A stretch of 50,123 nt of DNA from positions 1-50,123 of the forward strand of contig JAIESI010000022.1 in assembly GCA_019746135.1 (NCBI GenBank), given 5' to 3'. Below, one piece after another: positions 9,105 to 36,882 of this stretch. The position numbers and the translations under genes were made by a program. The notes below the pieces were generated by a model. That model saw only the letters and a program-made list of their open reading frames with translations, did no database searches and was not told the DNA's origin. The first letter of the stretch is position 1. Every line of letters starts with the position of its first letter. Source of the stretch: Xanthobacteraceae bacterium. GTDB lineage: Bacteria; Pseudomonadota; Alphaproteobacteria; Rhizobiales; Xanthobacteraceae.

Positions 9105-9120
9105 GGCAATCCGCATGCCA
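9105..9120 (-). promoter_or_regulatory. Sigma-54 promoter for PRISE reductase 1
   Basis: Read on the minus strand, TGGCATGCGGATTGCC has exact -24/-12 spacing. The predicted start is near 9094, 24 bases before the ATG. The nearest TGT-N11-ACA site begins 61 bp upstream of the box. Confidence 0.75.
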
Positions 9121-9181
9121 CCACCGCAACCGGAGCGATGACACGCTCGCCGCGGCCGATTTGGCCGTCGGCGAACCTCAC

Positions 9182-9231
9182 TGTTCGCGACGGTGACAAA
9201 TGCACAGCCATTTCTGTGCGCTGCAACGACA
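9182..9231. promoter_or_regulatory. Pair of TGT-N11-ACA enhancer sites
   Basis: Two palindromic sites, TGTTCGCGACGGTGACA (9182-9198) and TGTGCGCTGCAACGACA (9215-9231), start 33 bp apart. They lie between the divergent sigma-54 promoters at 9105 and 9265 and could serve both. The same 33-bp pairing recurs at 19847-19896. Confidence 0.65.
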
Positions 9232-9264
9232 CAACGCCTGCCGTCACGGTGACAGCGGCAGCAA

Positions 9265-9280
9265 TGGCATGGCGCTTGCA
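9265..9280 (+). promoter_or_regulatory. Sigma-54 promoter for TctC paralogue 1
   Basis: TGGCATGGCGCTTGCA matches -24/-12 with exact spacing. The predicted start is near 9291, 44 bases before ATG 9335. The box lies 33 and 66 bp downstream of the paired TGT-N11-ACA sites. Confidence 0.75.
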
Positions 9281-9334
9281 GTTTCCGAGCCCAATAAAAG
9301 CAAGACCGTATCGCCGACACCGGGAGGACATCGG

Positions 9335-10306
9335 ATGAGAGAACCAAGAAGCCGCGCCGCCATGCTGCTTGCCGTGCCCATCGCGCTGAGCACCGCAGCA
9401 TCAACGACGGTCGGGGCCCAGGAAAAATACCCGGCGAAAGCCGTCGAGATCGTCGTTCCATTCGTTGCGGGCGGCTCCACCGACCTGGGAGCCCGCGTTT
9501 TCGCCGAAGCCCTGCAAACCCGCTGGTCGTCGTCGGTTCGCGTGATCAACGAGCCCGGCGGCAACACAGTCCCCGCCGTCACCAACCTCATGGGCGCGTC
9601 GCCGGCCGGCTATTCCGTGCTGATGGATGGGCCCGGGTCGAGCTCGATGCTCGAAACGGTCGTCAAAACCGTTCCCTTCAAGGTCGATGACCGCACGTTC
9701 CTCGGCATGGCCGCGCAGACGCCACTGATGCTGGTCGTCGCCGCGGACTCGCCATTCAAGACACTCGGCGACGCCGTCGCCGCACTCAAGGCCGATCCCT
9801 CGACCTTTTCATGGACCTCCGGCGCCGGCACAACCGACGTCACCTTCCGCCGCCTGTTCCAGATCGTCGGCATCGACTACCGCAAAACGCGGGCGATCCA
9901 GGTGCGAGGCGGTGCCGAGGCCATCAACCTGGCTGCAGGCGGACACGTGATGATCGGCGTTGGCTTCTGGGGCAGCATCGCGCCGCTCGTCACGGCAAAG
10001 AAGTTGCGCGTGCTCGCGGTCGCCGGGCCAAAGCGCTTTGCTGCGATCCCGGACGTGCCGACAACCGCCGAGGCCAGCTATCCCGACCTCATCGTCCTGC
10101 AATGGATCGGATTTTCGGGCCCGCCAAAGATGAACGCCACCGCGGTCGACGTCTGGCAAAAGGCAATCGCTGAAGTCAGCACGGCCCCCAAGGTCATCCA
10201 GGGTCTGGAGCGGGTTGGCCTTGTACCTTTCCCGACCACCCCTGCCGGCATGCGCGACTTCGTTTCAAAGGAGCGCGACATCGTGAAGGCCCTGTGGAGC
10301 AACTGA
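9335..10306 (+). CDS. Bug/TctC-family periplasmic solute-binding protein (paralogue 1)
   Basis: A 323-residue extracytoplasmic binding protein of the tripartite tricarboxylate transporter class. A signal peptide (cleavage near residue 28) is followed by EKYPAKAVEIVVPFVAGGSTD, the family's first beta strand and carboxylate-binding loop. GGGAGGA ahead of ATG 9335 and the sigma-54 promoter at 9265 fix the start. It is strikingly similar along its length to the convergent paralogue at 10398-11357 (shared SSMLETVV, FKTL.DA, GGHV, TTAEA segments), with which it shares a terminator. The membrane partners TctA and TctB are encoded at 20587 and 17669. The ligand is probably a carboxylate; its identity is unknown. 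Confidence 0.9.
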   Translation: MREPRSRAAMLLAVPIALSTAASTTVGAQEKYPAKAVEIVVPFVAGGSTDLGARVFAEALQTRWSSSVRVINEPGGNTVPAVTNLMGASPAGYSVLMDGPGSSSMLETVVKTVPFKVDDRTFLGMAAQTPLMLVVAADSPFKTLGDAVAALKADPSTFSWTSGAGTTDVTFRRLFQIVGIDYRKTRAIQVRGGAEAINLAAGGHVMIGVGFWGSIAPLVTAKKLRVLAVAGPKRFAAIPDVPTTAEASYPDLIVLQWIGFSGPPKMNATAVDVWQKAIAEVSTAPKVIQGLERVGLVPFPTTPAGMRDFVSKERDIVKALWSN

Positions 10307-10335
10307 TCGAGCGACAAGAAGTTCGCTCAGACAAC

Positions 10336-10374
10336 GAAAGCCTGCTGTTCACGTGCAGAGAACAGCAGGCTTTC
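10336..10374. terminator. Bidirectional intrinsic terminator between convergent TctC genes
   Basis: A perfect 15-bp inverted repeat (GAAAGCCTGCTGTTC / GAACAGCAGGCTTTC) with a 9-base loop is followed on the plus strand by TTATTT. It sits between the stops of the two convergent tctC genes and can serve both directions. Confidence 0.85.
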
Positions 10375-10397: not shown

Positions 10398-11357
10398 TTA
10401 CTGTGTGTAAAGCGACCTGGTCTCATTCGCTTCTTTGTCCACGCGCTCGGCCATGCCCTTGGCATCGCGATAAAGGGGCAGCAAGCCGACCTTCAGCAGA
10501 CCGTCCGCATACGCCTTCGACTTCGCTATTTCGCGCAAAGTCTCGTCCCACACCTTCACGACGTGTGGCGGCAGCTTCGGCGGGCCGGAAACGCCAATCC
10601 AGTAGAGGACTTCGATCGACGGGAAGCCGGCTTCAGCCGTGGTCTGCGTATCCGGCAGGTTCGGCCAACGCTCAGGCGACGCCACCGCAAGAACGCGAAT
10701 GCGTTTGGCTTCAAGCGGAGCGGCAATCGAGCTATACGAACCGACGCCGAGCCGGACGTGACCGCCAGCCGTCATCGTTATGGCTTCCGAGCCGCCCTTC
10801 AGCTGAATCGCACGAGTGTTCTTCACATCCACGTTGGTGGCCTTGAAGAACTGCCGGAAGGCCATGTCCTGAGCGCCCGCGCCGCCAAGCGAGGTCCAGG
10901 TGAACGTGTTCGGATCCTTCTGCACCGCTTCGGCAGCATCCTTGAGCGTCTTGAATGGCGACTCATGAGGAACGACGAACTTCATCGGCGTGTAGGCCGC
11001 AATCGCAACGAAGGTGCGATCGGTCGTCTTGAACGGCAGATTCCTGACGACGGTCTCGAGCATCGAACTTTGTGGCGGCCCATCCATGAGCATGGTGTGG
11101 CCGTCGGGGTTTGCTCGCATCACCTCGCTCACCGCCGGAACGGTATTGCCGCCGGGCTTGTTGATGATGCGAACCGGCACACCCCATTTCGCCTCAAGCT
11201 GCTGTGCGAGAACGCGGCCCCCCAGATCGGTCGATCCGCCGGCCGCGAAAGGCACAATCAGTTCGACGGCCTTGGTGGGATACTTTTCTTGTGCTGCGGC
11301 GTTGCCGATACCCAAGGTCAGGGCCACGGCGCCGGCCAACAATGCAGCGCGTCTCAT
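10398..11357 (-). CDS. Bug/TctC-family periplasmic solute-binding protein (paralogue 2)
   Basis: A 319-residue Bug protein. The signal peptide MRRAALLAGAVALTLGIGNA is cleaved near residue 22 (AAA-QEK), then EKYPTKAVELIVPFAAGGSTD follows. Resemblance to paralogue 1 is far closer than to the third Bug protein at 42367-43350, which suggests a recent duplication. GGAGGAA three bases before ATG 11357 sets the start; the frame is open upstream to 11447 without family features. A sigma-54 box at 11429-11444 would drive it separately from paralogue 1. Two binding proteins serving one TctA/TctB channel could widen ligand range. Confidence 0.9.
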   Translation of the reverse strand: MRRAALLAGAVALTLGIGNAAAQEKYPTKAVELIVPFAAGGSTDLGGRVLAQQLEAKWGVPVRIINKPGGNTVPAVSEVMRANPDGHTMLMDGPPQSSMLETVVRNLPFKTTDRTFVAIAAYTPMKFVVPHESPFKTLKDAAEAVQKDPNTFTWTSLGGAGAQDMAFRQFFKATNVDVKNTRAIQLKGGSEAITMTAGGHVRLGVGSYSSIAAPLEAKRIRVLAVASPERWPNLPDTQTTAEAGFPSIEVLYWIGVSGPPKLPPHVVKVWDETLREIAKSKAYADGLLKVGLLPLYRDAKGMAERVDKEANETRSLYTQ

Positions 11358-11428: not shown

Positions 11429-11444
11429 CGCAAATTCCATGCCG
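11429..11444 (-). promoter_or_regulatory. Sigma-54 promoter for TctC paralogue 2
   Basis: On the minus strand the box reads CGGCATGGAATTTGCG, with correct GG-N10-GC spacing and the first T replaced. The predicted start is near 11418, 61 bases before ATG 11357. Confidence 0.6.
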
Positions 11445-11494: not shown

Positions 11495-11542
11495 TGTCCT
11501 TGCAGACGACGTCTGCCGTCCAGACTGTCCTTCCGACAAACA
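11495..11542. promoter_or_regulatory. TGT-N11-ACA enhancer site with a near-match partner
   Basis: TGTCCTTCCGACAAACA (11526-11542) is a full match to TGT-N11-ACA. TGTCCTTGCAGACGACG (11495-11511) matches except for one base in the last triplet. They start 31 bp apart, upstream of the sigma-54 box at 11429. Confidence 0.5.
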
Positions 11543-11586: not shown

Positions 11587-12696
11587 TCAGAAGATATTTG
11601 ACCGCTCGTACTGGATCGGCCAGCGCGCGTCGGCGCGGAGAGCCCGTGCCGCCTTGAGAGGCCAATAAGGCTCCGACATCAGCGTTCGGCCGAGCACGAC
11701 GAGATCCGCCTGACCGTTTGCCAAGATCTGCTCGGCCATGTCGGCGCTATGGATCAGGCCGACCGCGGCGGTCGGCAGACCTGTCTCGCGACGCACCGCC
11801 TCTGCAAACGGCACCTGATAGCCGGGATGAATTGCAATCGATTGCCGCGGATCATTGCCGCCGCTCGAGCAGTCGATCAGGTCAACGTCGCCGCGGGCCT
11901 TGATACGCCGGCACAGCTCAATGCTCTGCGGCAGATCCCACCCGCCTTCGACGTGGTCGCTCACCGAGAGGCGCAGGAAAAGCGCCAGATCGTTCGGCCA
12001 TTCCGTGCGGACGGCATCAAGCGTCTCCATCAGCAGCCGAATGCGATTTTCGAACGAACCGCCATAGCCGTCGGTCCGCTGGTTGCTCAGCGGAGAACAG
12101 AATTGATGCAGCAGGTAGCCATGCGCGGCGTGCACCTCGATGACCTGGAATCCCGCCTGTCGAGCGTAGCGGGCCGACGTTGCCATCGACGCCGTCACCG
12201 TCTCGATTTCCTTCTCGTCCATTGCCGCCGGCGTCGGAAAGCCCTTGGCAAAAGCAAGCGCGCTCGGTCCGATGACGTCCCATCCCCCCTGCTCCGCCGG
12301 CAACGGCAAGGACCGTTCCCATGGCCGCATGGTCGATGCCTTGCGTCCTGCATGCCCGATCTGAATTCCGGCAACAGCGCCCTGCGCCCGCACGAACTTC
12401 GCGATCCGCGCAAATGCATCGCGCTGCTGCTCATTCCAAAGCCCGAGACAGTATTTGGTGATACGTCCACGCGGCTCGCTGTGCACGGCCTCAGTGAAAA
12501 CGATACCGACGCCGCCAACAGCGCGAGAGCCCAGATGTACCATATGCCAGTCGTCGGGCATGCCGTCCGTCGCGCAGTACTGGCACATCGGCGACAGCAT
12601 GATCCGGTTCGGCGCTTCGATGCTGCGGAAGCGTATCGGGCGAAGAAGGTACGGATGGGAATCGCGCTTGAGAATCCTGCGTTCGTTTTCGCTCAC
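11587..12696 (-). CDS. Old Yellow Enzyme family ene-reductase (YqjM-like)
   Basis: A 369-residue FMN-dependent ene-reductase that would reduce alpha,beta-unsaturated carbonyls. It carries the YqjM-class motifs SPMCQY (redox-sensing Cys plus Tyr), IQIGHAGRKAS, and HAAHGYLLHQFCSPLSNQRT with the following YGGSxENR (His-x-x-His substrate pair and FMN contacts). The start is a GTG at 12696 preceded by GAGG; a nearby ATG is out of frame and immediately terminated. It follows a small dabb-like gene by 71 bp on the same strand, so both probably use the promoter at 13146. With two PRISE reductases nearby, the cluster has at least three enone-reducing enzymes. Confidence 0.9.
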   Translation of the reverse strand: MSENERRILKRDSHPYLLRPIRFRSIEAPNRIMLSPMCQYCATDGMPDDWHMVHLGSRAVGGVGIVFTEAVHSEPRGRITKYCLGLWNEQQRDAFARIAKFVRAQGAVAGIQIGHAGRKASTMRPWERSLPLPAEQGGWDVIGPSALAFAKGFPTPAAMDEKEIETVTASMATSARYARQAGFQVIEVHAAHGYLLHQFCSPLSNQRTDGYGGSFENRIRLLMETLDAVRTEWPNDLALFLRLSVSDHVEGGWDLPQSIELCRRIKARGDVDLIDCSSGGNDPRQSIAIHPGYQVPFAEAVRRETGLPTAAVGLIHSADMAEQILANGQADLVVLGRTLMSEPYWPLKAARALRADARWPIQYERSNIF

Positions 12697-12767: not shown

Positions 12768-13103
12768 TCAGGGCTCGAGGGACTTCACGCGCTCGAACAT
12801 GCCGTGACGACGCACGGTCATGCGTGGACGGATTTCCTTTGGCCAGTCGCCGGCGCCGGATGCCGCGCGCCACTCCTTCGACTTTGGCACGTCTGGTGCA
12901 TCGACATCGTAGACGGCGAGATACTCGGGCATCTCCGGCGTATCCGCCCAAACGAGTTTGAAGCGCGAACACGACCGGACGCCGGGCACTGACATCAGCG
13001 CGGGAACATGCTCAGAATCGTAAAGCTCGGTGAAACGCCGTTCGAGCTCTGCCGGAATGGCGATCTGGGCAATGTAGATGAACGGCGCCTTGTCATCCGG
13101 CAT
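12768..13103 (-). CDS. Small EthD/dimeric alpha-beta-barrel protein
   Basis: A 111-residue protein with the ferredoxin-like dimeric alpha-beta barrel pattern: a first strand (FIYIAQIAIP), a helix, the motif LYDSEHVPALMSVPGVRSCSRF, then a second strand (EYLAVYDVD). The motif (L/W)Y-x2-EHVP-x4-PG is shared with the protein at 13301-13993 and resembles EthD proteins. EthD accompanies a P450 in ether degradation; other members are isomerases, dehalogenases or monooxygenases. AAGGGA precedes ATG 13103. It is the leading gene of a two-gene unit with the ene-reductase. Function unknown. Confidence 0.7.
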   Translation of the reverse strand: MPDDKAPFIYIAQIAIPAELERRFTELYDSEHVPALMSVPGVRSCSRFKLVWADTPEMPEYLAVYDVDAPDVPKSKEWRAASGAGDWPKEIRPRMTVRRHGMFERVKSLEP

Positions 13104-13145: not shown

Positions 13146-13161
13146 TGCAAAGACCGTACCA
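13146..13161 (-). promoter_or_regulatory. Sigma-54 promoter for the dabb-protein/ene-reductase unit
   Basis: On the minus strand the box is TGGTACGGTCTTTGCA: correct spacing, one deviation in the -24 element. The predicted start near 13135 leaves 32 bases before ATG 13103. Confidence 0.55.
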
Positions 13162-13231
13162 GCGCCGGAACCGCGCCTTGGCAGACGCCACCCGCCTCGT
13201 CCCCGCGCAACTGTTCGCGGCACACTCACAT

Positions 13232-13248
13232 TGTCCGCCGTGCATACA
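13232..13248. promoter_or_regulatory. TGT-N11-ACA enhancer site
   Basis: TGTCCGCCGTGCATACA, flanked as T-TGT...ACA-A, lies 70 bp upstream of the sigma-54 box at 13146-13161 and 52 bp before the divergent ATG 13301. A degenerate partner, TGT-N11-TCA, starts at 13212. Confidence 0.5.
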
Positions 13249-13300: not shown

Positions 13301-13993
13301 ATGGCCCTGCTCGGAAGCTACGTTTTGTTGATCTGCCATGACTTTCCGGAGGCGGACGACAAGGACTTCAACGAATGGTACATCCGCGAGCACGTGCCTG
13401 AGCGCGTGGCCCTTCCCGGAATCAATCGCGGGCGCCGCTTTCGTTCGATCGGCGAAGGACCGAAATACCTTGCCTTCTACGAAGCGACCGGCGCCGGAGC
13501 GGTTTCATCCGCGGCCTATCTCAAGCTTGTGCGGAATTTCGATCCGCGCAGCCGGCAATTTGTCCCTCGCTTCGCGTCCGCTGCCCGTACGGTCTCCGTC
13601 ATCCGTGCTTCGACAGGTCTCGGCGAAGGCGGCGTCATTGCGCTCCTGGGCTTTGACGCCGAGGCAAAAGCCGCGCAATCGCTTCGTGACGATGCAGCGC
13701 GGCTGACGGACACTCTTGCACGCCGGCACGGGATTGCCGGCGCGCACCTGCTTGAAGCCGATGATGCGGCGCTGGCGCATTCACGCCAGGGACATCTCAG
13801 GCAGAACGACCTGGTTCTCCCCTGGACCTTGCTTGTCGAAGCGATCGACGAGGCAAGCCTGATGACGGTGTGGAACGAGCTGCTGACCCCCAACGGTCAA
13901 AACGCGCTCGGCGTCAGCAAGATCCTGGTACGCGGCCGATACCGGCTGCTTTACGGCCTCAGTGCGCCGCGGGTCCTCAAGCCGCTGGAATGA
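13301..13993 (+). CDS. EthD/dabb-like protein, possibly two-domain
   Basis: A 230-residue protein. Its N-terminal half (SYVLLICHDFP, then WYIREHVPERVALPGINRGR, then PKYLAFYEATG) has the dimeric alpha-beta-barrel motif seen at 12768-13103. The C-terminal half repeats the size and alternation of such a domain without the EHVP motif (GVIALLGFDA...TLLVEAID). This suggests a fused, diverged second domain. The ribosome-binding site is weak (AAAGAG). Its 3' end overlaps the convergent reductase gene by 17 bp (13977-13993). It lies divergent from the dabb/ene-reductase unit and close to its enhancer site. No -24/-12 box was found on its own strand. Function unknown. Confidence 0.65.
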   Translation: MALLGSYVLLICHDFPEADDKDFNEWYIREHVPERVALPGINRGRRFRSIGEGPKYLAFYEATGAGAVSSAAYLKLVRNFDPRSRQFVPRFASAARTVSVIRASTGLGEGGVIALLGFDAEAKAAQSLRDDAARLTDTLARRHGIAGAHLLEADDAALAHSRQGHLRQNDLVLPWTLLVEAIDEASLMTVWNELLTPNGQNALGVSKILVRGRYRLLYGLSAPRVLKPLE

Positions 13994-15047
13994 CGCGTGC
14001 TGCCCGCAGTGCGTCAAAGAGGCCATAGAACATGGCCTCCGAATCGACCACGTCCGGGAAGCCGAACTGCCGCAGCTTGGTCGTGCTCGACATCATGTCC
14101 CAGGACGGCGTGAACAGGAAATCGCCGTAGGACCAGATGGCGGCCTGATCGTATGGAATCGGCCGCAAATCGTGGCGCGCGACAATGCGATCCCAAACCT
14201 CTCCCTTGTCGCCCATTGCATTGGCCAGCTTGAGGTTGATGACAGGTCCGCACCGCATGCCGAAGTAGTCCGCGATCCGCGGCCACAGGTTCTCCCAGCG
14301 GAAGAACTCGCCGTTCGTGACATTGAAAGCGTTGTTGCCGCATTTCGGCTCGGTCGACATCCAGACGATCGCTTTGGCGAGAAGGCTCGCCTCGGTGCAC
14401 TGGTAGACGGCCCGGTAATTCGCCTCTGTGCCCGGAAAGGACAAAGGCCCCCCGAGCTCCTTGCAGATCGCCGCATAGACGCCGATCAGGCGCGCCATGC
14501 TGCGCACGATCGTGGGTGACGGATCGCAGATTCCGTGCGGCCTGCTGGCGCTCCAGGTCCAGCCGCCCATCTTGGCGCGTGCGATCGCCGCATCCTCCTG
14601 CGCGAAATAGAACGTGTCGTACAACGAGCGCGGGTCGCTCTCGCGTGCCGGTGTCGGAAAGCGCCCCTCCGTCGAACCGTAGTACTTGGTGCCTTGCACA
14701 AGGTGCACATGCCGCAGCGGACGCCCGCGCGGTTCCAACTGATCAAGGACGTTCAGGAACATGCGCGTGTTCACGTCGGCGGGCTCACGCTGTGTCGTCG
14801 TATGGTCGTAGCGCGCCGCATTGAAGAAGTGGGTCACTCCGGAGAGGTCACCCAGAACTTTCGCGCATGCAGCATCATCGGTCGCATCAAGCGACAGATA
14901 GTCGACGCCAGCGACACGCTCGCTGACGGCAGGGATGCGCCTCGACAGGCCGATGACGTGCCAACCGCCGATAGAGGCGAGATGCGAGGCTATGCGTGCG
15001 CCGACCACACCAGTGACCCCGGATATCAACGCCGTACCTGCCGCCAT
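13977..15047 (-). CDS. PRISE-type SDR enone reductase (copy 2)
   Basis: A 356-residue paralogue of the reductase at 8012-9070. It has SGVTGVVGARIA at the N-terminus, VQGTKYYGSTEGRFPTPARE with the PRISE Lys, TFYFAQED with the catalytic Tyr, and the same C-terminal blocks (FNVTNGEFFRWENLWPRIADYFG). GGAGGTG ahead of ATG 15047 sets the start; residues encoded further upstream come from the promoter region. It is divergent from the amidohydrolase gene at 15230. A 15-bp tandem duplication upstream duplicates its sigma-54 box. Two PRISE enzymes could act on stereoisomers or successive intermediates; this is inference. Confidence 0.85.
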   Translation of the reverse strand: MAAGTALISGVTGVVGARIASHLASIGGWHVIGLSRRIPAVSERVAGVDYLSLDATDDAACAKVLGDLSGVTHFFNAARYDHTTTQREPADVNTRMFLNVLDQLEPRGRPLRHVHLVQGTKYYGSTEGRFPTPARESDPRSLYDTFYFAQEDAAIARAKMGGWTWSASRPHGICDPSPTIVRSMARLIGVYAAICKELGGPLSFPGTEANYRAVYQCTEASLLAKAIVWMSTEPKCGNNAFNVTNGEFFRWENLWPRIADYFGMRCGPVINLKLANAMGDKGEVWDRIVARHDLRPIPYDQAAIWSYGDFLFTPSWDMMSSTTKLRQFGFPDVVDSEAMFYGLFDALRAARVIPAA

Positions 15048-15087: not shown

Positions 15088-15118
15088 TGCAGAAAAGATG
15101 CCAGCAGAAAAGATGCCA
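15088..15118 (-). promoter_or_regulatory. Tandemly duplicated sigma-54 promoter for PRISE reductase 2
   Basis: A perfect 15-bp direct repeat (plus strand GCAGAAAAGATGCCA at 15089-15103 and 15104-15118) gives, on the minus strand, two back-to-back boxes TGGCATC-TTTT-CTGC with correct -24/-12 spacing. Predicted starts near 15077 and 15092 lie 30 and 45 bases before ATG 15047. Confidence 0.65.
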
Positions 15119-15141: not shown

Positions 15142-15157
15142 TGGCATAGGGATTGCA
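15142..15157 (+). promoter_or_regulatory. Sigma-54 promoter for the amidohydrolase-2 gene
   Basis: TGGCATAGGGATTGCA matches -24/-12 with exact spacing. The predicted start near 15168 leaves 62 bases before ATG 15230. No TGT-N11-ACA site is visible in this short divergent region. Confidence 0.7.
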
Positions 15158-15229: not shown

Positions 15230-16069
15230 ATGCGTTTCTTCGATTTTCGTGTGCGCCCGCCCTACAAGGGTTTCCTCAGCATGGTGATGTACGCCCAGCC
15301 GGAGCGCCGAAACGGCTTCACCCGCAATCTGAAGTTCGAACCTTCGCCGGCCGCCGACAAGCAGTCGGTCGAACTGATGATCGACGAGATGAACCAGGCC
15401 GGCGTCGAGAAGGCGCTGGTCGTCGGCCGCAACTCCGGCATGCTGGGCTCGATCGACAACGCCGAGGTCGCCGAGTTCTGCAACATGCACCCGGGCAGAT
15501 TCCTCGCCGCCGCGTCGATCGACGCGAGCGAGCGCAAACGCGCCGTGCAGCAGATCGACGACGCCATCAAGGCCGGCTTCCGCATCGTCAACATCGAACC
15601 CGGCGCCTACGTGCCGGCGATGTTCACCGACGATCGCCGGCTCTATCCGATCTACGCGCATTGCGAGGACCGCAATATCCCGATCATCGTGATGACCGGC
15701 GGCAATGCGGGTCCGGACCTCAACTACACGCACCCGGCGCTGCTCGACCGCGTGCTCGCCGATTTCCCGAAGCTCAAGATCGTCTGCTCGCACGGCAACT
15801 GGCCGTGGGTGACGGAGATCCTCCACGTCGCGTTCCGGCGCAGCAACCTCTACGTCTCGCCGGACATGTACCTGCCGAACATGCCGGGCTCGGACGACTA
15901 CGTCAAAGCCGCAGACGGCTTCCTGCAGGATCGCCTCATCTATGCGAGCTCATTCCCGTTCTGCGGCATCAAGGAGTATGCGGAATGGTTCTCGCGCCTG
16001 CCGATCCGTCCGGAGGCAATGGAGAAAGTCGCCTATCGCAACGCGATGACGCTGCTCGGGCTAAGCTGA
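15230..16069 (+). CDS. Amidohydrolase-2 family protein lacking canonical metal ligands
   Basis: A 279-residue TIM-barrel protein of the amidohydrolase-2 (ACMSD-like) family, whose members are often decarboxylases or lactone/C-C hydrolases. It begins MRFFDFRVRPPYKGF where family members normally have D-x-H-x-H, so both first metal ligands are Arg. IVCSHGNWPWVTE keeps the later His. LIYASSFPF stands where (G)SD-x-P is expected, so the terminal Asp is Ser. GGAGA precedes ATG 15230. It is divergent from PRISE reductase 2. Catalysis, if any, is probably metal-independent or uses other ligands. It may be a recognised DFRxRPP subfamily; I cannot confirm that. Confidence 0.75.
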   Translation: MRFFDFRVRPPYKGFLSMVMYAQPERRNGFTRNLKFEPSPAADKQSVELMIDEMNQAGVEKALVVGRNSGMLGSIDNAEVAEFCNMHPGRFLAAASIDASERKRAVQQIDDAIKAGFRIVNIEPGAYVPAMFTDDRRLYPIYAHCEDRNIPIIVMTGGNAGPDLNYTHPALLDRVLADFPKLKIVCSHGNWPWVTEILHVAFRRSNLYVSPDMYLPNMPGSDDYVKAADGFLQDRLIYASSFPFCGIKEYAEWFSRLPIRPEAMEKVAYRNAMTLLGLS

Positions 16070-17641: not shown

Positions 17642-17668
17642 GATGCGCTCCTTTTCCCCTGCCCGTGC

Positions 17669-18133: not shown

Positions 18134-18156
18134 GATCCCCTCCTCCCTGTCCGCGT

Positions 18157-23485: not shown

Positions 23486-23501
23486 TGCGTTCGCCCTTCT
23501 T

Positions 23502-27671: not shown

Positions 27672-27675
27672 GGCA

Positions 27676-29720: not shown

Positions 29721-30427
29721 CAGTGATTCATGCCCTGGCCGCCATCGAGATAGATGGTCTCGCCGGTAAGGTACGCAATATTTTCCGAGAAGATCGAACC
29801 GACGAAGCGCGCGACCTCATCGGCAGCGCCGGCGCGCGCCATAGGCACGCGGCGGCCCAACCAAGCCTTCACCTTCTCGCGGGCGAGAAATTCGCGGTTG
29901 AGATCGGTCTCGATATAGCCGGGCGCCACATCGAGCACACGAATGCCGTCCTTGGCCCATTCGACCGCCAGACAGCGCGTCATCGCGCCGACCGCCGCCT
30001 TGGAAGCGCAATAAGCGATGTTTTCGGCAACGCCGAGCTTGTCAAAGAACGAGCCGATATTGACGATGGTGCCGCCGCCGGCCGCCTTGAGATGCGGGTA
30101 AGCCTCACGGCAGGCGACCATCGCCGCGGTCAGATTGAGAGCCAAGGTCTCGTTGAGTTCGCTGACGGACAGGCGATCGCTGGGGGAAGCGCGATGAAAG
30201 CCGGCGTTGTTGACGAGGCCGACGACGCGCCCTTCCTTGGCTACGGCGTCAATCGTGCTCTTCAGGGCGTCCTCGTTGGTCACGTCGCAACGATAGCCTT
30301 TGCCAGCCGCCGCCTCGCCGCTGCGCGACAGTGCGGCGACATCAAAGCCGCGGCGCGCCAGATCGGCACTGACAGCCGCCCCTATACCACGGCTACCGCC
30401 GGTTACGATGATTGTCCCCTTAGGCAT
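29720..30427 (-). CDS. SDR, candidate 2-hydroxycyclohexanecarboxyl-CoA-type dehydrogenase (BadH-like)
   Basis: A 235-residue classical SDR: TGGSRGIG loop, CDVTNED (Asp contacting adenine), VNNAGF, catalytic Ser in NIGSFF, and YCASK. VAPGYIETDLN is normal. The start is ATG 30427, eight bases inside the end of the enoyl-CoA hydratase gene; the frame is open further upstream only as a shadow. Placed between a hydratase and an acyl-CoA dehydrogenase in an operon with a BadI-like hydrolase, it most likely oxidises the ring hydroxyl to the 2-keto-acyl-CoA substrate of ring cleavage. That is inference from pathway logic. Confidence 0.85.
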   Translation of the reverse strand: MPKGTIIVTGGSRGIGAAVSADLARRGFDVAALSRSGEAAAGKGYRCDVTNEDALKSTIDAVAKEGRVVGLVNNAGFHRASPSDRLSVSELNETLALNLTAAMVACREAYPHLKAAGGGTIVNIGSFFDKLGVAENIAYCASKAAVGAMTRCLAVEWAKDGIRVLDVAPGYIETDLNREFLAREKVKAWLGRRVPMARAGAADEVARFVGSIFSENIAYLTGETIYLDGGQGMNH

Positions 30428-31187
30428 CGCGGAACTCCGGTTTGCGCTTTTCGCTGAACGCCGCCATGCCCTCTTCGGCATCCGCCGTACGATACGCAAT
30501 CGTGCCGAGATCAGCCTCAATCTTGAGGCCGTCACGAACCGGCACGTCGAGCGCCCGCTGCACCGCTTCGCGCGCCAGCTTCAAGACCGGCAGGCTGTAG
30601 CCGGTGAATTCGCGGGCGAAGGCCAAACCGGCCTCGACGGCATCGCCTTCAACCAGCCGGTTCACCAGTCCGATGCGATAGGCTTCCGCAGCATCAATGG
30701 TCTTGCCGGTCAGGATCATTTCCAGAGCGCGTCCCTCGCCGACGAGGCGCGGCAGACGCTGGGTACCACCATAACCAGGGGTAAGGCCGAGTTTGATCTC
30801 CGGCAGGCCCATCTTTGCATTGGGCGTAGCCAACCGGAATGTGCACGCGAGCGCCAGCTCAAGCCCGCCACCGAATGCGAAGCCATTGAGGACGGCAATA
30901 GACGCCACCGGAAACGTGTCCAGCTTTGCAAAGACCGCCTGCCCCCGCTCCAGGCCTTCACGCTGCGCCGCGAGCGAGCGATTGCGCAGCTCCTTGATGT
31001 CGGCACCCGCACAGAATGCCTTCGGCCCGGCGCCTGTGATGACCAGCGCTCGCACGCTCATCTGTGCAATCTGATCGAAAGCCGATCCGATCTCGTCGAT
31101 GATTGCAAACGACAAGGCGTTGAGCGCCTCCTGACGGTCGAGAACCATGAGTGCGACGTCACCGCGTTGCCCGACTTTCACTGGCAT
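30420..31187 (-). CDS. Enoyl-CoA hydratase (BadK-like position)
   Basis: A 255-residue crotonase-superfamily hydratase. The first oxyanion-hole segment is KAFCAGADIKEL. NGFAFGGGLELALACTFRLA carries the first catalytic Glu, and MGLPEIKLGLTPGYGGTQRL carries the second, so both hydratase glutamates are present. The C-terminus SEKRKPEFRDA is typical. It would hydrate the ring 1-ene carboxyl-CoA to the 2-hydroxy compound. It overlaps the upstream ligase gene by one base (TGATG) and the downstream SDR by eight. Confidence 0.88.
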   Translation of the reverse strand: MPVKVGQRGDVALMVLDRQEALNALSFAIIDEIGSAFDQIAQMSVRALVITGAGPKAFCAGADIKELRNRSLAAQREGLERGQAVFAKLDTFPVASIAVLNGFAFGGGLELALACTFRLATPNAKMGLPEIKLGLTPGYGGTQRLPRLVGEGRALEMILTGKTIDAAEAYRIGLVNRLVEGDAVEAGLAFAREFTGYSLPVLKLAREAVQRALDVPVRDGLKIEADLGTIAYRTADAEEGMAAFSEKRKPEFRDA

Positions 31188-32806
31188 CAGACAGCCCTCG
31201 CCTGCGCGGTGAACCTAATCGACACGGGCGATACTTCGCCACGCCTGGTCATTTCGATCAGTTCGCGCTTGAGAATCTTGCCGCTGGCGGTCAGCGGAAA
31301 CGACGCCACTTTCAGGAAATACTCCGGCATGTCGTATTTGGAGAGGCCCTGCTCCGCAAGGTGATCGAGCAGCGCGTCCGATCCAATGTCACCGATAACA
31401 GCAATGCAGACGCGCTCGCCGAGACGCTCGTCTGCGACCGGATAACAGGCGACACGCTGTACATTCGGATGCCGCAGCGCCAGCGCCTCGATCTGAGCCG
31501 GATAGATGTTGTGGCCGCCGCGGATGATGAGATCCTTCAGCCGCCCCTCGATCCTGAGATTGCCGGCCTCGTCCAGCTCCCCGAGATCTCCGGACAGAAA
31601 CCAGCCGTCGCGATTGAAGCTTCCTTCCGTTGCCGCCTGGTTGTTGAAATAACCGAGCATCAGCGCCGCGCCCCGACCGCCGATCTGCCCCACCATACCG
31701 GCCGGCACTTCGCGGTTCTCGTCCGCCGGATCGAACAGTCTGACCTCATAGGCCTTCCCGCCGCGGCCACACGTCGAGGTAATGACCAGACTGTCGTCAC
31801 CGGGATGCGTGTACTGGTGCGACGAGTTTTCGGTCATGCCATAGATATTCTGTGGCTTGATGCCCTGGCGTACGAAAGCTTCGCACACCGACGGCGGGAT
31901 CGGTGAGCCCGCCATATAGAAAATCTCGACCGAACCCAGCTTCGACATTCCGACCTGGCCCTGCTCGGCGAGAATGTCCATTGCATGCGTCGGCACGCCC
32001 ATCACATAGGTTGCGCCGGTCTCAACGATCCAGCCAAGACGCGTCATGCCAACCGGAGGATCGTCGGTAATCAAGGTGGCACCCGCCAGCAGCCATTGTG
32101 CAACGGCGACCCAGGCAATGTGATGCGACAGCGGGCTGAGCGACAGAAGCCTTGTGTGCGGCCCATGACCCCAGTCGCGCACCATGTCGCGTGCATTGGC
32201 GAGCAGCGAATTGTCCGAATGCATGACGCATTTCGGCGTGCCGGTCGTGCCCGAGGTGAAAGCCAGATATGCGACCTTATCCGGATCTTCGACCGGCTGA
32301 CTGACGGCTGGGCCCGGCGCCGGGAAGGCGTCCGGCGTGTAGATGCGGCGCAGCGACTGCGCCCGCATCAGGCCGCCGGCCGTCGCGCCCTGCACGCCGT
32401 CGGCGCCCCAACCCGGCTCTGTCAGCAGCGCCTTGGCGCCAAGCTGATCCAATAGGCGCACGATCTCACCGGAGGTATATGTCCGGTGAAGCGACGGATT
32501 GCAGGCAATGCCGTTGCGCGTGCAGGCCAGGAACATGACGACGGCTTCGGCCCGATTGCCGAGCCACATCGACACGCGGCTGCCTGCCGTAATCTCCTGC
32601 GCATGCAGGTCCGCCGATACCCCGTCCACCCAGGCCTGCAACTGCCGCCAGCTCAATTGCCGCCGGCCGTCGCGCAGCGCAGGCGCATCCGGCATGCGCG
32701 CCGCGTGGTCGCGCAGCAACGAATAGAACGTGTCGGTCCGCCAGGTTCCTTCGGCGTAATAGCGCTTCGCCGCGGCGGGATGATGCAAGGTCAAAAACGG
32801 CCGCAT
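31187..32806 (-). CDS. Acyl-CoA synthetase (AMP-forming), AliA-like
   Basis: A 539-residue ANL-family ligase activating a carboxylic acid with ATP and CoA. Motifs in order: P-loop YLAFTSGTTGTPKCVMHSD near residue 185-203, IYGMTENSSHQYT (A5 motif), GWFLSGDLGELDEAGN (A7), GRLKDLIIRGGHNIYPAQIE (A8 hinge), and the A10 catalytic Lys in LTASGKILKREL. The overall look, starting MRPFLTLHHPAAAKRYY, reminds me of cyclohexanecarboxylate-CoA ligase (AliA) proteins. The following BadK-, BadH-, AliB- and BadI-like genes support an alicyclic acid as substrate. The exact acid is unknown. Confidence 0.85.
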   Translation of the reverse strand: MRPFLTLHHPAAAKRYYAEGTWRTDTFYSLLRDHAARMPDAPALRDGRRQLSWRQLQAWVDGVSADLHAQEITAGSRVSMWLGNRAEAVVMFLACTRNGIACNPSLHRTYTSGEIVRLLDQLGAKALLTEPGWGADGVQGATAGGLMRAQSLRRIYTPDAFPAPGPAVSQPVEDPDKVAYLAFTSGTTGTPKCVMHSDNSLLANARDMVRDWGHGPHTRLLSLSPLSHHIAWVAVAQWLLAGATLITDDPPVGMTRLGWIVETGATYVMGVPTHAMDILAEQGQVGMSKLGSVEIFYMAGSPIPPSVCEAFVRQGIKPQNIYGMTENSSHQYTHPGDDSLVITSTCGRGGKAYEVRLFDPADENREVPAGMVGQIGGRGAALMLGYFNNQAATEGSFNRDGWFLSGDLGELDEAGNLRIEGRLKDLIIRGGHNIYPAQIEALALRHPNVQRVACYPVADERLGERVCIAVIGDIGSDALLDHLAEQGLSKYDMPEYFLKVASFPLTASGKILKRELIEMTRRGEVSPVSIRFTAQARAV

Positions 32807-32809
32807 CGC

Positions 32810-33589
32810 TTAGCGCCCGAACTTGGTCGGATCCGGCTTTCTCTTCTGCGCGAAGGAAGCCGACAGTTCATGGCTCTCCTCGCTCTCCAGATAAGACCGC
32901 AGCAGCAGATCGTGCGCCATGCGCGCGAGACCAGAGACGCCGTTGTGGCGGGCATTGAACGCCGCCTTGACCGAGGCAAGCGCAAATGGGCCGCGGTCGG
33001 CCGTTTCGAGCGCAAAGGCTCGCGTCGCCTGCTTGAGTTCGGCGTCCGGCACCACTCGATTGATGAGGCCGAGCGAAAGCGCCTCACGTGCCGACATCTT
33101 GGGATTGTTGAACCAGATTTCCTTGGCTTTCTTCTTGCCCACCAGGTCTTCCAGATACCAGGTGCCGTAGCCAGCATCGAACGAACCCATCATAGGCCCG
33201 ACCTGGCGAAACACGGCGCTCTCCTTGGCGATGGTCATGTCGCAAACCATCTGCAGAACATTGCCGCCGCCGACCGCAAAGCCGTTTACCGATGCGATGA
33301 CCGGCTTCTGCAGCTTGTCGATCGCTTCGTACATTTCGAGCGTCGGCAGCGTCCCGGCATAGAGAATGGTTTTCTCCATGCCATCCTTGCGTCCGCCGAT
33401 GCAGAAGAACTTGTCGCCCGCACCGGTGATGACGACAACGCGTGTACGCGTCTCTCGGCGGATCGACTCGATGCAGTCACGGATCTCATGACACATCGTT
33501 GCGTTGAACATGTTGCCGTCGTCGGGACGGTTCAACGTAATCGTGCCGATAGAGCCATCTTCTTCGTACAGGATCGTCTGATAAGGCAC
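32810..33589 (-). CDS. BadI/MenB-like ring-cleaving acyl-CoA hydrolase
   Basis: A 259-residue crotonase of the DHNA-CoA synthase branch. NGFAVGGGNVLQMVCDMTIA and the hallmark QVGPMMGSFDAGYGTWYLEDLVGKKKAKEIWF match MenB and 2-ketocyclohexanecarboxyl-CoA hydrolase (BadI), including the Asp in SFDAGYG. Hydratase glutamates are absent (G-G-N instead of G-L-E). BadI opens the 2-keto ring to a pimelyl-CoA-like dicarboxylate. No other menaquinone genes occur nearby, which favours ring cleavage over MenB. I chose GTG 33589 because AGGAG follows the upstream stop directly with 6-base spacing. ATG 33616 would add nine residues and overlap the upstream gene by 17 bp. Confidence 0.85.
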   Translation of the reverse strand: MPYQTILYEEDGSIGTITLNRPDDGNMFNATMCHEIRDCIESIRRETRTRVVVITGAGDKFFCIGGRKDGMEKTILYAGTLPTLEMYEAIDKLQKPVIASVNGFAVGGGNVLQMVCDMTIAKESAVFRQVGPMMGSFDAGYGTWYLEDLVGKKKAKEIWFNNPKMSAREALSLGLINRVVPDAELKQATRAFALETADRGPFALASVKAAFNARHNGVSGLARMAHDLLLRSYLESEESHELSASFAQKRKPDPTKFGR

Positions 33590-33599
33590 CGCACTCTCC

Positions 33600-34865
33600 T
33601 CAGATAACGTCGTCACGCTGCAGCGCAGCTATCTCGTCCTGGTTCAGTCCTGCGATTTCGCGCAGAACGTCAACCGTGGACTCGCCGAGTCTCGGCGGCG
33701 CCATGCGGGGCACATTCGCCGCGCCGTCGACGTGAATGCCGGTGCCAACCTGCGGCACGTCCCGGCCATCGGCCTGCAGCGTATAAAACAGCCGCCGATT
33801 TTGGAACTCACGGTCGGCAGCGACTTCATCGACCCGGTAGATAGGCCCCGCCGGCACGCGCGCCTGGCTCATGAGATCCAGCCAGTACTGACGCGGCCTG
33901 CCGCGCAGGATATCCTGGATAAGCGCGACAATCTCCGTGCGATGCTGGCGTCTCTCGACATTGGTGGCGTAGCGCGCCTGGCTTCCTACCTCGGGTTGTC
34001 CGACCGCGCGCCAGAAACGCTCCCAGATACTGTCGGAGCCAAGACCGACGGTCATCGGCAGGTCGGCTGTGTCGAACACCTGATAGACGGCAATTACGCT
34101 GTCCTTGCCGCCCGAGCGGCGCGGCAGCTGCTGTGTCGCCAGGAACGGAACGATGCGGCACGACAGGAAGCGCGTCATGCTTTCGACCAGGGAGATATCG
34201 ATGGAGTGCCCCTTGCCGCTGCGACTTCGCTCGAACAGCGCAGACACCGTCGCGAAGGCCGCGTCCGAGCCAGCCAGCATGTCGGCGGCCGGCGCACCGA
34301 CTTTTTGCGGCGGGCCGTCGGGCTCACCGGTGATGTCCATGATCCCGGAGTAGCCTTCGGCGATCAGGTCGTAGCAGGTCCAGTCGCTGCGCGGGCCAAC
34401 AGCGCCAAAGCCGGTGATCGACACGTGCACAATGTCGGGCCGCAATGCGCGGCAGGCGGCGGCATCGATGCCGAGCTTCTTCTGCACGCGGGCCGGCTGA
34501 TTGACCAGGATGACATCGCTGGCCTTGATGAGCGCCGTGAGCGCCGACCTCGCCTGCGGTTTCGCATAGTCCAGCGTGACACTGCGCTTGTTCCGGTTGA
34601 CCGACAGATACCAGAGCGACTCGCCATCAACGAACGGCGGCCCCCAGGTGCGAGCGTCGTCGCCGACACCGGGACGCTCGACCTTGATCACGTCGGCGCC
34701 CATGTCTCCGAGAAGCATGGCGCCGTAGGGCCCGGCAATCGAAGTACTGAGGTCGAGCACGCGAACGCCCGCGAGCAACCGGAATCCCGGTCCCGGCGCG
34801 ACGATCGGGAGCTCAACCGGATCTCCCTCTTCGGCCGCGGCTCGCTGGGGGACTGACGAATGCAT
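33600..34865 (-). CDS. CaiB/BaiF family III CoA-transferase
   Basis: A 421-residue CoA-transferase and first gene of the 12-gene operon. LLAGVRVLDLSTSIAGPYGAMLLGDMGADVIKVERPGVGDDAR and VNRNKRSVTLDY are family signatures. GAPAADMLAGSDAAFATVSAL holds the conserved nucleophilic Asp. A 20-residue extension precedes the usual start. ATG 34865 follows GAGGTTGC and lies 31 bases from the predicted sigma-54 start. It could transfer CoA from a product such as a dicarboxylyl-CoA to the incoming acid, backing up the AMP-forming ligase. Donor and acceptor unknown. Confidence 0.85.
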   Translation of the reverse strand: MHSSVPQRAAAEEGDPVELPIVAPGPGFRLLAGVRVLDLSTSIAGPYGAMLLGDMGADVIKVERPGVGDDARTWGPPFVDGESLWYLSVNRNKRSVTLDYAKPQARSALTALIKASDVILVNQPARVQKKLGIDAAACRALRPDIVHVSITGFGAVGPRSDWTCYDLIAEGYSGIMDITGEPDGPPQKVGAPAADMLAGSDAAFATVSALFERSRSGKGHSIDISLVESMTRFLSCRIVPFLATQQLPRRSGGKDSVIAVYQVFDTADLPMTVGLGSDSIWERFWRAVGQPEVGSQARYATNVERRQHRTEIVALIQDILRGRPRQYWLDLMSQARVPAGPIYRVDEVAADREFQNRRLFYTLQADGRDVPQVGTGIHVDGAANVPRMAPPRLGESTVDVLREIAGLNQDEIAALQRDDVI

Positions 34866-34906: not shown

Positions 34907-34922
34907 AGCAACGGGCATGCCA
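34907..34922 (-). promoter_or_regulatory. Sigma-54 promoter for the 12-gene alicyclic-acid operon
   Basis: On the minus strand TGGCATGCCCGTTGCT fits TGGCACG-N4-TTGCW with a single deviation. The predicted start near 34896 gives a 31-base leader. A TGT-N11-ACA site begins 61 bp upstream of the box. Confidence 0.8.
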
Positions 34923-34983
34923 ACCCGCTGGACTCGCCAAAGCGCGCACAAATGCATCTCTGAACGTCAGTTGGGCGGAGTAG

Positions 34984-35030
34984 TGTTTTCTGGCTGGACA
35001 GGACACAATGGAGTGTCCGCACAACAAACA
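34984..35030. promoter_or_regulatory. Pair of TGT-N11-ACA enhancer sites next to the activator gene
   Basis: TGTTTTCTGGCTGGACA (34984-35000) and TGTCCGCACAACAAACA (35014-35030) start 30 bp apart, between the sigma-54 promoter at 34907 and the activator gene at 35098. A GGACAC-N6-GTGTCC palindrome (35001-35018) lies in the middle. Binding here could also autoregulate the activator. Confidence 0.6.
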
Positions 35031-35097
35031 GTGATGCTGCGTTGCAATATGACGGTTGAAGTGCCGCCCATAAGAAAACGAACGTGAGGGAGGTTGC

Positions 35098-36738
35098 ATG
35101 AAGGACGCGACGAGCGTGGCCGGCCTGATCGTAACGGACGCGGACGGCCGCATCGCCTACTCGGCAGGTGCCGGTACCGATCCTCACATCGTCACTCTCG
35201 TCGGCGACAAGATGTGGCGCACCGAAGCAGTCAACCGCAGGTTGATGCCGCTGGCGACGGCCAGGCAAAAGTTTCTCATCTGCTGGGTCAAGGTGAAGGA
35301 GCAGTATGTCGGCGTGATCGTCGACAATGTCACCGACACTGTTTTTGAATTCACGGCTGTGATCGACTTTGCGTGGGACATCATCAATCACCTGCTCAGC
35401 GACCCCTTCAGCGCGATGACTGTTGTCGATGCGGAAGCACGCATCGCATTTCTGTCGCCGGTTCATGAAGGCTTCTTTGGCCTCGACCGCGGTGCGGCGA
35501 TCGGCCGTCCGGTTGACGAGGTCATTGAGAACACCCGTCTCCACCGCGTCATAAAGACCGGCAAGGCAGAGATTGGCGACGTACAGCGCATGCGCGGGCA
35601 GGACCGCGTGGTGAACCGTGTTCCGATCATGCGCGACGGCGAGGTCGTCGGCGCTATCGGGCGCGTGATGTTCAAGAGCCCGCAAGAAGTTCAGGCCCTC
35701 AACAGCCGCGTCAATGCTCTCGAGAAGGAGCTGGAATTCTACCGCCGCGAAACGCACGTGCTCCGCCGTGAGGCTTTCGATCTTGATTCGATCGTGGGCA
35801 AGAGCGAGGCGATCCGCCGCCTCAAGGAAGATGTCGTCCGCGTGGCCCCACTCGACATCCCGGTGCTCATTCTCGGCGAAAGCGGCACCGGCAAGGAACT
35901 GGTGGCGCACGCGATCCATCGCCTCAGCTCGCGCAAGGCCGAGAAGATGGTGATTCTGAATTCAGCCGCCCTGCCGAACAACCTCGTCGAGAGCGAGCTA
36001 TTCGGATACGAACCCGGATCGTTCACCGGCGCCGACCGCAAAGGCCGCCGCGGCAAGTTCGAGCAGGCCAATGGCTCATCGCTGTTTCTCGATGAAATCG
36101 GCGACATGCCGGTGGATATCCAGGCCAAGCTCTTGCGAACCTTGCAGGACCGGGTCGTGCAGCGGGTCGGCGGCGAGGTCTATCGCGAAGTCAACTTCAG
36201 GCTCATCGCGGCCACCAATCGCGATCTGCAGAACCTCGTTTCCAACGAGCAATTCCGCCTGGACTTCTACTACCGGATTAGCCCGATCGTCCTGAATGTG
36301 CCGCCGCTGCGCGAACGCCTCGATGACATTCCGATCCTGATCCAGAAGTTTCTTTCGGAGTTCAGCAGCCGCCACCAGCTTGCGATTCCCGACATTGACG
36401 ACGAGGTTTACTCGTATCTGGCGAGCCAGCCGTGGCCCGGCAATATTCGCCAGCTCCGGCATGAAATCGAACGAGCCGTCATTTTCTGCAGCGGCAACAG
36501 GGTGCGCATTTCCGATTTCCGCCGCAACGAAACCACTCAGCCCGGCACGACGGCCGCGGCGACCGAGCCCATCACAACAGATGCTCCCAAAACAGGAGAC
36601 TTGCAGACAGCCCTGTCACGGGTCGAGGACAATCTGATCCGCGAAGCGCTTGCCCGCTACAAGGGCAACAAGAAGCGCGTGGCGGAGGAACTGGGGATTT
36701 CCCGCTCCTACCTCTACAAGAAGCTCGGCGTGTGCTGA
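35098..36738 (+). CDS. Sigma-54-dependent activator (PAS - AAA+ - Fis HTH)
   Basis: A 546-residue enhancer-binding protein. Residues 1 to about 95 form a sensory region of uncertain fold. About 96-200 is a PAS domain (SAMTVVDAEARIAFLSPVHEGFFGL), followed by a short coiled coil (EVQALNSRVNALEKELEFYRRE). The AAA+ domain begins near 222, with Walker A GESGTGKE from 260, the sigma-54 contact loop GSFTGA at 307-312 (Ala of GAFTGA is Ser), Walker B SLFLDEIGDM, and a C-terminal Fis helix-turn-helix (KKRVAEELGISRSYLYKKL). No receiver domain, so a small-molecule signal is likely. AGGGAGG precedes ATG 35098. It lies between two sigma-54 promoters and is the prime candidate to bind the TGT-N11-ACA sites. 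Confidence 0.93.
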   Translation: MKDATSVAGLIVTDADGRIAYSAGAGTDPHIVTLVGDKMWRTEAVNRRLMPLATARQKFLICWVKVKEQYVGVIVDNVTDTVFEFTAVIDFAWDIINHLLSDPFSAMTVVDAEARIAFLSPVHEGFFGLDRGAAIGRPVDEVIENTRLHRVIKTGKAEIGDVQRMRGQDRVVNRVPIMRDGEVVGAIGRVMFKSPQEVQALNSRVNALEKELEFYRRETHVLRREAFDLDSIVGKSEAIRRLKEDVVRVAPLDIPVLILGESGTGKELVAHAIHRLSSRKAEKMVILNSAALPNNLVESELFGYEPGSFTGADRKGRRGKFEQANGSSLFLDEIGDMPVDIQAKLLRTLQDRVVQRVGGEVYREVNFRLIAATNRDLQNLVSNEQFRLDFYYRISPIVLNVPPLRERLDDIPILIQKFLSEFSSRHQLAIPDIDDEVYSYLASQPWPGNIRQLRHEIERAVIFCSGNRVRISDFRRNETTQPGTTAAATEPITTDAPKTGDLQTALSRVEDNLIREALARYKGNKKRVAEELGISRSYLYKKLGVC

Positions 36739-36787
36739 CACGCCTTGCGGCGCCGGCGCGCCGTCTGGTGTGTCCTTGCATCCGCAC

Positions 36788-36804
36788 TGTCGCCGAAGCG
36801 GACA
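36788..36804. promoter_or_regulatory. TGT-N11-ACA enhancer site
   Basis: TGTCGCCGAAGCGGACA lies within the perfect inverted repeat ACTGTC-N9-GACAGT (36786-36806). It ends 62 bp before the sigma-54 box at 36867, the same distance as at 9.1, 19.8 and 34.9 kb. Confidence 0.65.
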
Positions 36805-36866
36805 GTCTGTCGACCTCGCGCGCACTCGGTGGCGTCCCGGCCGCCGGAACTGCAGCAAAGCCGCCT

Positions 36867-36882
36867 TGGCATGCTCCGTGCT
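36867..36882 (+). promoter_or_regulatory. Sigma-54 promoter for the two-gene CoA-transferase unit
   Basis: TGGCATGCTCCGTGCT has exact -24/-12 spacing, with one T of TTGC replaced by G. The predicted start near 36893 leaves 45 bases before ATG 36938. Confidence 0.7.

Follow-up and report, generated by a model that had tools for sequence, protein, structure and literature searches.

We analysed a 50,123-base contig of a Xanthobacteraceae bacterium (C365, here called the window) and found that -24/-12 boxes of the sigma-54 type precede the predicted transcription units of a catabolic gene cluster of ~31 kb (positions 8012-39407), that paired dyads lie upstream of most of these boxes, and that both elements accompany one clade of sigma-54 activators. 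The cluster very probably constitutes one sigma-54 regulon, in which the enhancer-binding protein encoded at 35098-36738 would act through the paired dyads on ten transcription units. In the mechanism we propose, this PAS-PAS/AAA+/Fis protein would sense a substrate or intermediate and its dimers would bind two TGTCCGC-N3-GCGGACA dyads, two or three helical turns apart. An ATPase ring assembled at the dyads would loop to the RpoN holoenzyme and open the promoters, with a single dyad pair (9182-9231; 19847-19896) probably serving two divergent promoters. The ten units would supply TctABC uptake, CoA activation and transfer, and beta-oxidation-like ring cleavage.

Sigma-54 boxes of the cluster and their conservation

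Boxes at 9106, 9265, 11430, 13147, 15089/15104, 15142, 19770, 19936, 34908 and 36867 precede the ten putative transcription units. The original prediction had listed twelve boxes, one of them at 1908 outside the cluster, and a -24/-12-like element with the correct spacing is indeed present at each; the plus-strand coordinates were right, whereas those on the minus strand were off by one (the box given as 9105(-) spans 9106-9120). The boxes also precede gene starts as claimed, although at 35-104 nt from the start codons chosen here rather than 24-93. All 11 cluster boxes, and 1908 as well, show the mark of a sigma-54 promoter, GG and GC set a fixed distance apart in a TGGCAY-N5-TTGC-like element. 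The exact form TGGCATG-N4-TTGC, which about a dozen boxes had been said to share, occurs in five only (1908, 9106, 9265, 19770 and 34908), compared to 0.04 expected from shuffles. The remaining boxes read TGGCATA (15142, 19936), TGGCATC (15089, 15104), CGGCATG (11430), TGGCATG (36867) and TGGTACG (13147), and the departures within the -12 part are CTGC at 15089/15104 and GTGC at 36867.

That these boxes arose by chance in GC-rich DNA, or are remnants no longer in use, is hardly credible, although one count leans that way: with up to two mismatches allowed, the 29 matches in the window were modestly above the 18.2 (sd 4.2) of the shuffles, 1/100 of which reached 29. Mismatch counting was dropped as the main test as too permissive, and because its excess was only modest we adopted a score in which GG and GC are obligatory and the weights follow an assumed sigma-54 consensus, and counted boxes of 9 or more. 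The window holds 14 such boxes, 12 outside genes (4.0 kb, 3.01 per kb) and two inside (12885 and 28933; 46.1 kb, 0.043 per kb), with none from 39683 onward. The outside-gene count is partly circular, as several starts in the gene map were set downstream of boxes and 19931-19974 was removed from coding sequence manually, while the low coding count (2 in ~46 kb) is unaffected; the equal coding density that had been named beforehand as speaking against a regulon was not seen. In the whole 7.74-Mb assembly (395 contigs, 97.55% complete, 8.52% contaminated), TGGCATGN4TTGC occurs seven times, five of them in the window (reversed control, 1), and TGGCAYRN4TTGC 15 times, seven of them in the window (reversed control, 12 in all).

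Relatives of the activator were sought in 296 genomes of the family. The closest, at 78, 76 and 74% identity, are in the genomes designated G033, G286 and G182, followed by relatives at 50-56%. Between TctC1 and CaiB4, contig C8 of G033 is near-colinear with the window, apart from an additional CaiB-like gene. With the tandem copies 15089/15104 counted as one, all 10 cluster box places have a box at the homologous spot in G033; five regions were aligned with their flanks, which have diverged while the boxes were kept. This homology, the assembly-wide enrichment and the coding versus intergenic counts in the main refute an origin by chance or decay, against which the position and orientation of the boxes and their distance to starts likewise speak.

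The T at the sixth box base had been called uncommon and read as pointing to common descent or co-selection; neither its rarity nor common descent was borne out. In G033 this base is C at 7/10 places, and the window has T in six of those seven; C is also present in the caiB2 boxes of G182 and G286 and in the caiB3 box of G286. Because G033 has C at 7/10 homologous boxes, the shared T is not a mark of box common descent. Nor is T rare, as it occurs in 18/49 boxes outside the set of regions used to derive the dyad motif (see below) and stands in the -24/-12 consensus TTGGCATNNNNNTTGCT given in a Clostridiales survey (PMC6615313). T/C differences between the window and G033 run six one way and none the other, which against a background of 1699:1140 is not compelling (p = 0.09). 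T is in excess in the window (11/12 boxes versus 18/49 elsewhere, p = 0.0008, Fisher), in a test that includes 1908 and each of the tandem copies and sets a single lineage against many. The shared T may largely be a change in the window's own lineage, and the excess is explained only partly.

Paired dyads upstream of the boxes

An expectation-maximisation search of 16 intergenic regions from the window, G033, G182 and G286 (the training set) revealed the motif TGTCCGC-N3-GCGGACA, that is TGT-N11-ACA, with a score of 178 compared to 71-77 in six shuffled sets; this control flatters the motif because the real regions are partly homologous and letters were shuffled singly. Exact palindrome word counts gave no clear signal. 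In the window, dyads lie upstream of 8/11 cluster boxes, as six pairs, roughly 35-110 bp from the box.

The clusters around the 50-56% activators had been left out of the dyad matrix and served as test set. In a first test (dyad score 7 or more within 220 bp), 31/34 boxes of these clusters had a dyad, as did 13/15 boxes of loci fetched after the motif search. Pooled outside the training set at constant thresholds (box 9.9, dyad 10, 180 bp; the threshold for dyads was set after the first test), 44/49 strong boxes carried a dyad, compared to 1/49 downstream of the same boxes, 65/2000 random stretches and 3/133 weak boxes. Merging divergent pairs and near-duplicate genomes by eye shrinks the count to 26/30 regions. 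Around other activators (79 loci, L060-L138), 3/45 boxes had a dyad. Dyad-dyad spacing, training loci included, was 19-20 or 30-33 bp in 33/42 cases, corresponding to two and three DNA turns.

Alternatively, the boxes could be sigma-54 promoters served by different activators, and the dyads operators of another local regulator, for instance a repressor, which we consider improbable. Such a regulator would fit the simple palindromic form of TGT-N11-ACA, and a comparable pair at another place in the assembly precedes an XRE-like gene (named from sequence) and has no neighbouring box. It would also fit the three cluster boxes for which no dyad is conserved and the boxes of plasmid-borne relatives, which are mostly without one. 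Yet the dyad follows box and activator clade, as the counts upstream, downstream and around other activators demonstrate, and its paired, phased spacing suits an activator. In addition, TGT-ACA dyads with 10-12 bp spacers, often at several upstream sites, are described for many Clostridiales activators in the same survey (PMC6615313). The dyad is the probable enhancer through which the activator encoded at 35098 works, new here.

Two divergent pairs of promoters probably share one dyad pair each. Between box TGGCATGCGGATTGC (9106-9120, minus strand), the putative promoter of a PRISE-like reductase gene (8012-9070), and box TGGCATGGCGCTTGC (9265-9279, plus strand; TGGCACGGCGCTTGC in G033), that of a TctC receptor gene (9335-10306), lie dyads at 9182-9198 and 9215-9231 (scores 10.9 and 13.9). 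G033 has a box homologous to 9106 and the matching dyad pair at the same 33-bp spacing, and its PRISE gene behind the 9106-type box matches over 107/352 residues only. Likewise, dyads at 19847-19863 and 19880-19896 (15.5 and 12.0; in G033 11.5 and 17.3, 32-bp spacing) separate box TGGCATGTCCTTTGC (19770-19784, minus; G033 TGGCATGCCGCTTGC), which would drive FAD-dependent oxidoreductase, TctB and MmgE/PrpD genes (16211-19665), from box TGGCATAACTCTTGC (19936-19950, plus; G033 TGGCATAAGTCTTGC), which would drive 19995-20570, TctA and GST genes (to 22735).

Box TGGCATGCCCGTTGC (34908-34922, minus), which would drive the core catabolic operon (22742-34865), has homologues in G033, G182 and G286, and the 30-bp spacing of its dyads, which lie between core operon and activator gene (34984-35000 and 35014-35030; 13.0 and 18.2), is kept in all three. 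At three further places a strong dyad is paired with a weak one. Box CGGCATGGAATTTGC (11430-11444, minus; G033 CGGCATGGAAATTGC), ahead of a TctC receptor gene (10398-11357), has dyads at 11495-11511 (weak, 9.4) and 11526-11542 (strong, 18.2; G033 pair 17.6 and 13.7). Box TGGTACGGTCTTTGC (13147-13161, minus; G033 TGGTACGATCCTTGC), ahead of 12768-13103 and an OYE-type oxidoreductase gene (11587-12696), has dyads at 13212-13228 (weak, 9.1) and 13232-13248 (strong, 17.2; in G033 a single dyad reaches 8 or more, at 18.0). Box TGGCATGCTCCGTGC (36867-36881, plus; TGGCACACTCCCTGC in G033 and G286), ahead of two CoA-transferase genes (36938-39407), has dyads at 36788-36804 (strong, 15.0) and 36808-36824 (weak, 8.5), for which the counterparts are a pair in G033 (17.1 and 10.0) and a single site in G286 (19.2).

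Three boxes in the middle of the cluster depart from this pattern. The 15-bp box TGGCATCTTTTCTGC is duplicated perfectly in tandem at 15089-15118 (minus; single copy TGGCACCGTTTCTGC in G033), as putative promoter(s) of a PRISE-like reductase gene (13977-15047), and stands back to back with box TGGCATAGGGATTGC (15142-15156, plus), ahead of an amidohydrolase gene (15230-16069). The layout is kept in G033, with 23 bp between 15104 and 15142 in the window and 27 bp in G033.

Several observations weigh against a single regulon. Over the 220 bp upstream of box 15142 no dyad reaches 7, 15089/15104 have one dyad-like site (15250-15266, 10.2), unpaired and within the amidohydrolase coding sequence, and the G033 counterparts of all three have no dyad of 5 or more within ~300 bp. 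Six of the 12 window dyads, one per pair, belonged to the training set, and half of their partners score below 10; 5/49 boxes outside that set lack a dyad. The box weights depend on an assumed consensus, and the genome-wide search for members covered exact boxes, so that members with looser boxes may exist outside the window. The activator and rpoN contigs might derive from different organisms, because the assembly, in 395 contigs, is contaminated (8.5%). Finally, among plasmid relatives with activators of 50-53% identity, from Aminobacter, Celeribacter, Salipiger and Burkholderia, a dyad was found at 2/19 strong boxes (L169 1/3, L170 1/10, L171 0/5, L172 0/1; L173 has no strong boxes). With the plasmid relatives mostly lacking it, the dyad is therefore valid for one clade and not for all relatives; outside the activator clade recognition seems to have diverged or to work differently.

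Dyad-like sites near the middle boxes were rejected. Site 15250 lies 132 bp from box 15104, on its upstream side, and exceeds the cut-off of 10, but it stands alone within coding sequence, drops under 5 in G033 and was not credited. Sites 14343 and 14427 also fall in coding sequence, and G033 sites at the matching 84-bp spacing score 6.1-6.7. Position and conservation are what suggest that the activator controls 15089/15104/15142. One could also imagine a self-contained accessory regulon, in which the activator clade travels with the cluster and its ten promoters, each phased dyad pair between divergent promoters works on both of them, and 15104/15142 are activated from dyads elsewhere in the cluster, transcription units thus sharing enhancers over kilobases; we regard this as rather unlikely. 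On balance, we favour one regulon under the activator at 35098, and the earlier claim that the scattered genes form one circuit can be kept for the cluster with this activator, given its 10/10 boxes in G033 and its shared dyad, with the middle boxes linked by position and conservation.

It cannot be kept for 1908. A circuit wider than the catabolic cluster that takes in the ABC transporter operon there (from 1963) is very improbable, even though its box (1908-1922, plus) is perfect and 40 nt separate it from an ATG that has a Shine-Dalgarno-like GGAGAGG. The 1908-type box was found in 12/12 aligned orthologous ABC substrate-binding-protein operons (1908-1922 and L174-L185), the window's included; the other 11, at 80-90% identity, belong to other genomes, which gave generic activator matches only or none. 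Within 200 bp of the box, none of the 12 operons has a TGT-N11-ACA dyad that scores 8 or higher. Instead, a ATTGTATAC-like element is located ~110 bp upstream, then, in 9/12, a GCATACGAT-like element. No activator motif was found around the 1908-type operon in stretches from G080 (40 kb), G262 and G012 (20 kb each). By these sequence comparisons, 1908 is a genuine sigma-54 promoter that belongs to a separate circuit.

Beyond the window, the paired-dyad pattern was found at four places in the assembly, two of them in the window (reversed control, 0). Its place on contig C316 has no box close by, and that on C237 has none in the 3-kb locus. None of the eight other exact TGGCAYRN4TTGC boxes in the assembly has a dyad scoring 10 or higher in the 1.5 kb ahead of it; at one of these loci a dyad lies ~1 kb downstream. 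With no dyad in reach, we rejected these boxes as regulon members.

Among the plasmid loci, L170 (Celeribacter indicus pP73A) carries divergent promoter pairs at 3074/3150 and 11787/11875 whose 15-bp boxes agree letter for letter and face each other as mirror images. On the Salipiger abyssi plasmid pPABY4 (L171), an annotated rpoN at 1903-3333 adjoins the related activator and possibly encodes a cluster-dedicated sigma-54.

The activator and known circuits

The gene at 35098-36738 (plus strand) encodes a sigma-54 enhancer-binding protein of 546 residues with tandem PAS, AAA+ and Fis helix-turn-helix domains. The AAA+ domain matches PF00158 with 214 bits (cut-off 20.2) and contains the GSFTGA loop, the Fis domain matches PF02954 with 44.7 bits, and PAS models were just under their cut-offs (E 3e-4). 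GSFTGA or GAFTGA is present in 6/6 readable clade relatives and not in two readable rows of 39% identity; four rows (G033, G054, G049, G018) were left out of this comparison. As had been predicted, this is the only enhancer-binding protein gene of the window, being the contig's sole PF00158 match. It is one of five matches above 180 bits among 11 in the assembly, in which one rpoN match was found.

An AlphaFold model of residues 1-231, based on a 16-row alignment, shows two PAS folds followed by a long helix (mean pLDDT 83.7, pTM 0.54); a fold predicted without alignment (pLDDT 44) was not used. The best 15 Foldseek matches for this sensor model include the FixL tandem PAS, the DhaR N-domain, the CitA single PAS and the NifL-NifA chain, with a TM score of 0.8 by target for CitA and 0.36-0.42 by query for these matches. 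The best NCBIfam model for the whole activator is PrdR (NF041552), at 403 bits versus a cut-off of 795, which places the protein outside PrdR.

The upstream site of NifA is TGT-N10-ACA. For Mesorhizobium loti, sixteen candidate -24/-12 promoters of a NifA-RpoN circuit are described on one mobile island, ICEMlSymR7A, in a paper that prints the NifA upstream site as TGT-N10-AGA (PMC3538637). The cluster resembles this regulon in having one activator, many -24/-12 promoters and upstream sites of the TGT-N10 class. Unlike NifA targets, it has a dyad spacer of 11 rather than 10, dyads that are mostly paired, a PAS-PAS sensor, and catabolic targets, namely transporters and CoA enzymes instead of nif/fix genes. 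It shares with PrdR and the Clostridiales activators a local one-component activator, the same dyad class and often several upstream sites. In the survey, 170/263 Clostridiales activators have a single target operon and the others between two and six (PMC6615313), whereas the cluster, in other organisms and with another pathway, has about ten transcription units for one local activator, nearer to NifA. The kind of circuit is already known, while the activator and its enhancer appear uncharacterised; a search of the open-licence literature found no paper on this cluster or dyad among those listed. The activator clade hereby gains a DNA target and a regulon, both open to testing, and clusters carrying it can therefore be annotated as one circuit. 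Natural test pieces are the divergent promoters, for enhancer sharing, and the good -24/-12 boxes without a conserved enhancer nearby.

Cluster genes and the probable pathway

Genes were named by Pfam and NCBIfam model searches. The core operon (22742-34865, minus strand) comprises 12 genes, whose layout suggests a single operon. Genes 1-6 encode a CoA-transferase III, a MenB/BadI-type crotonase, an acyl-CoA ligase, an enoyl-CoA hydratase, an SDR and an acyl-CoA dehydrogenase, and genes 7-12 two 3HCDH-type proteins, a CoA-transferase, a Zn-type dehydrogenase, a third 3HCDH and an SDR. TctC receptors, TctA and TctB make up a Tct uptake system. In total, the cluster has two PRISE-like reductases, four class III CoA-transferases, two crotonases and three 3-hydroxyacyl-CoA dehydrogenase-type genes, besides an OYE-type oxidoreductase, FAD-dependent oxidoreductase, MmgE/PrpD, amidohydrolase, GST, acyl-CoA ligase, SDRs and Zn-type dehydrogenase.

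The cyclohexanecarboxylate route involves AliA, AliB, BadK, BadH and BadI. The cluster is similar in that ligase, acyl-CoA dehydrogenase, hydratase, SDR and MenB/BadI-type crotonase are encoded in one operon; it differs in that no model reaches its cut-off and in the addition of CoA-transferases, PRISE reductases, OYE and Tct transport. The first crotonase scores 241 of 380 (cut-off) with the MenB model and 224 of 468 with badI. For the acyl-CoA dehydrogenase, the acryloyl-CoA reductase model was best (347 of 640), followed by cyclohexane-1-carbonyl-CoA dehydrogenase (288 of 650), and the acyl-CoA ligase scores 227 of 792 with the cyclohexanecarboxylate-CoA ligase model. In the NCBIfam search all equivalogs of cyclohexanecarboxylate degradation (ligase, dehydrogenase, BadI) were thus below cut-off, amounting to resemblance only. 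The gene content suggests that the substrate is probably an alicyclic acid, degraded by beta-oxidation-like ring cleavage after enone-reducing steps, a route not covered by the curated models searched.

The cluster (8012-39407) has a G+C content of 62.9%; five of six other measured contig stretches are at 65.5-67.3%, and C316 is at 60.7%. Ten other genus members had, among the matches listed, no activator match better than E 7.7e-64. The cluster was probably acquired, or the contig is a contaminant.

Two small, perhaps related proteins with weak DUF4286 likeness (E 0.001 and 0.04) are encoded at 12768-13103 (minus) and 19995-20570 (plus), each first in its own transcription unit. The open reading frame 13301-13993 (plus), inside the regulon and without a box of its own, has no Pfam match; conserved counterparts occur in G033 (66% identity over 165 residues) and in G051 (44% over 183).

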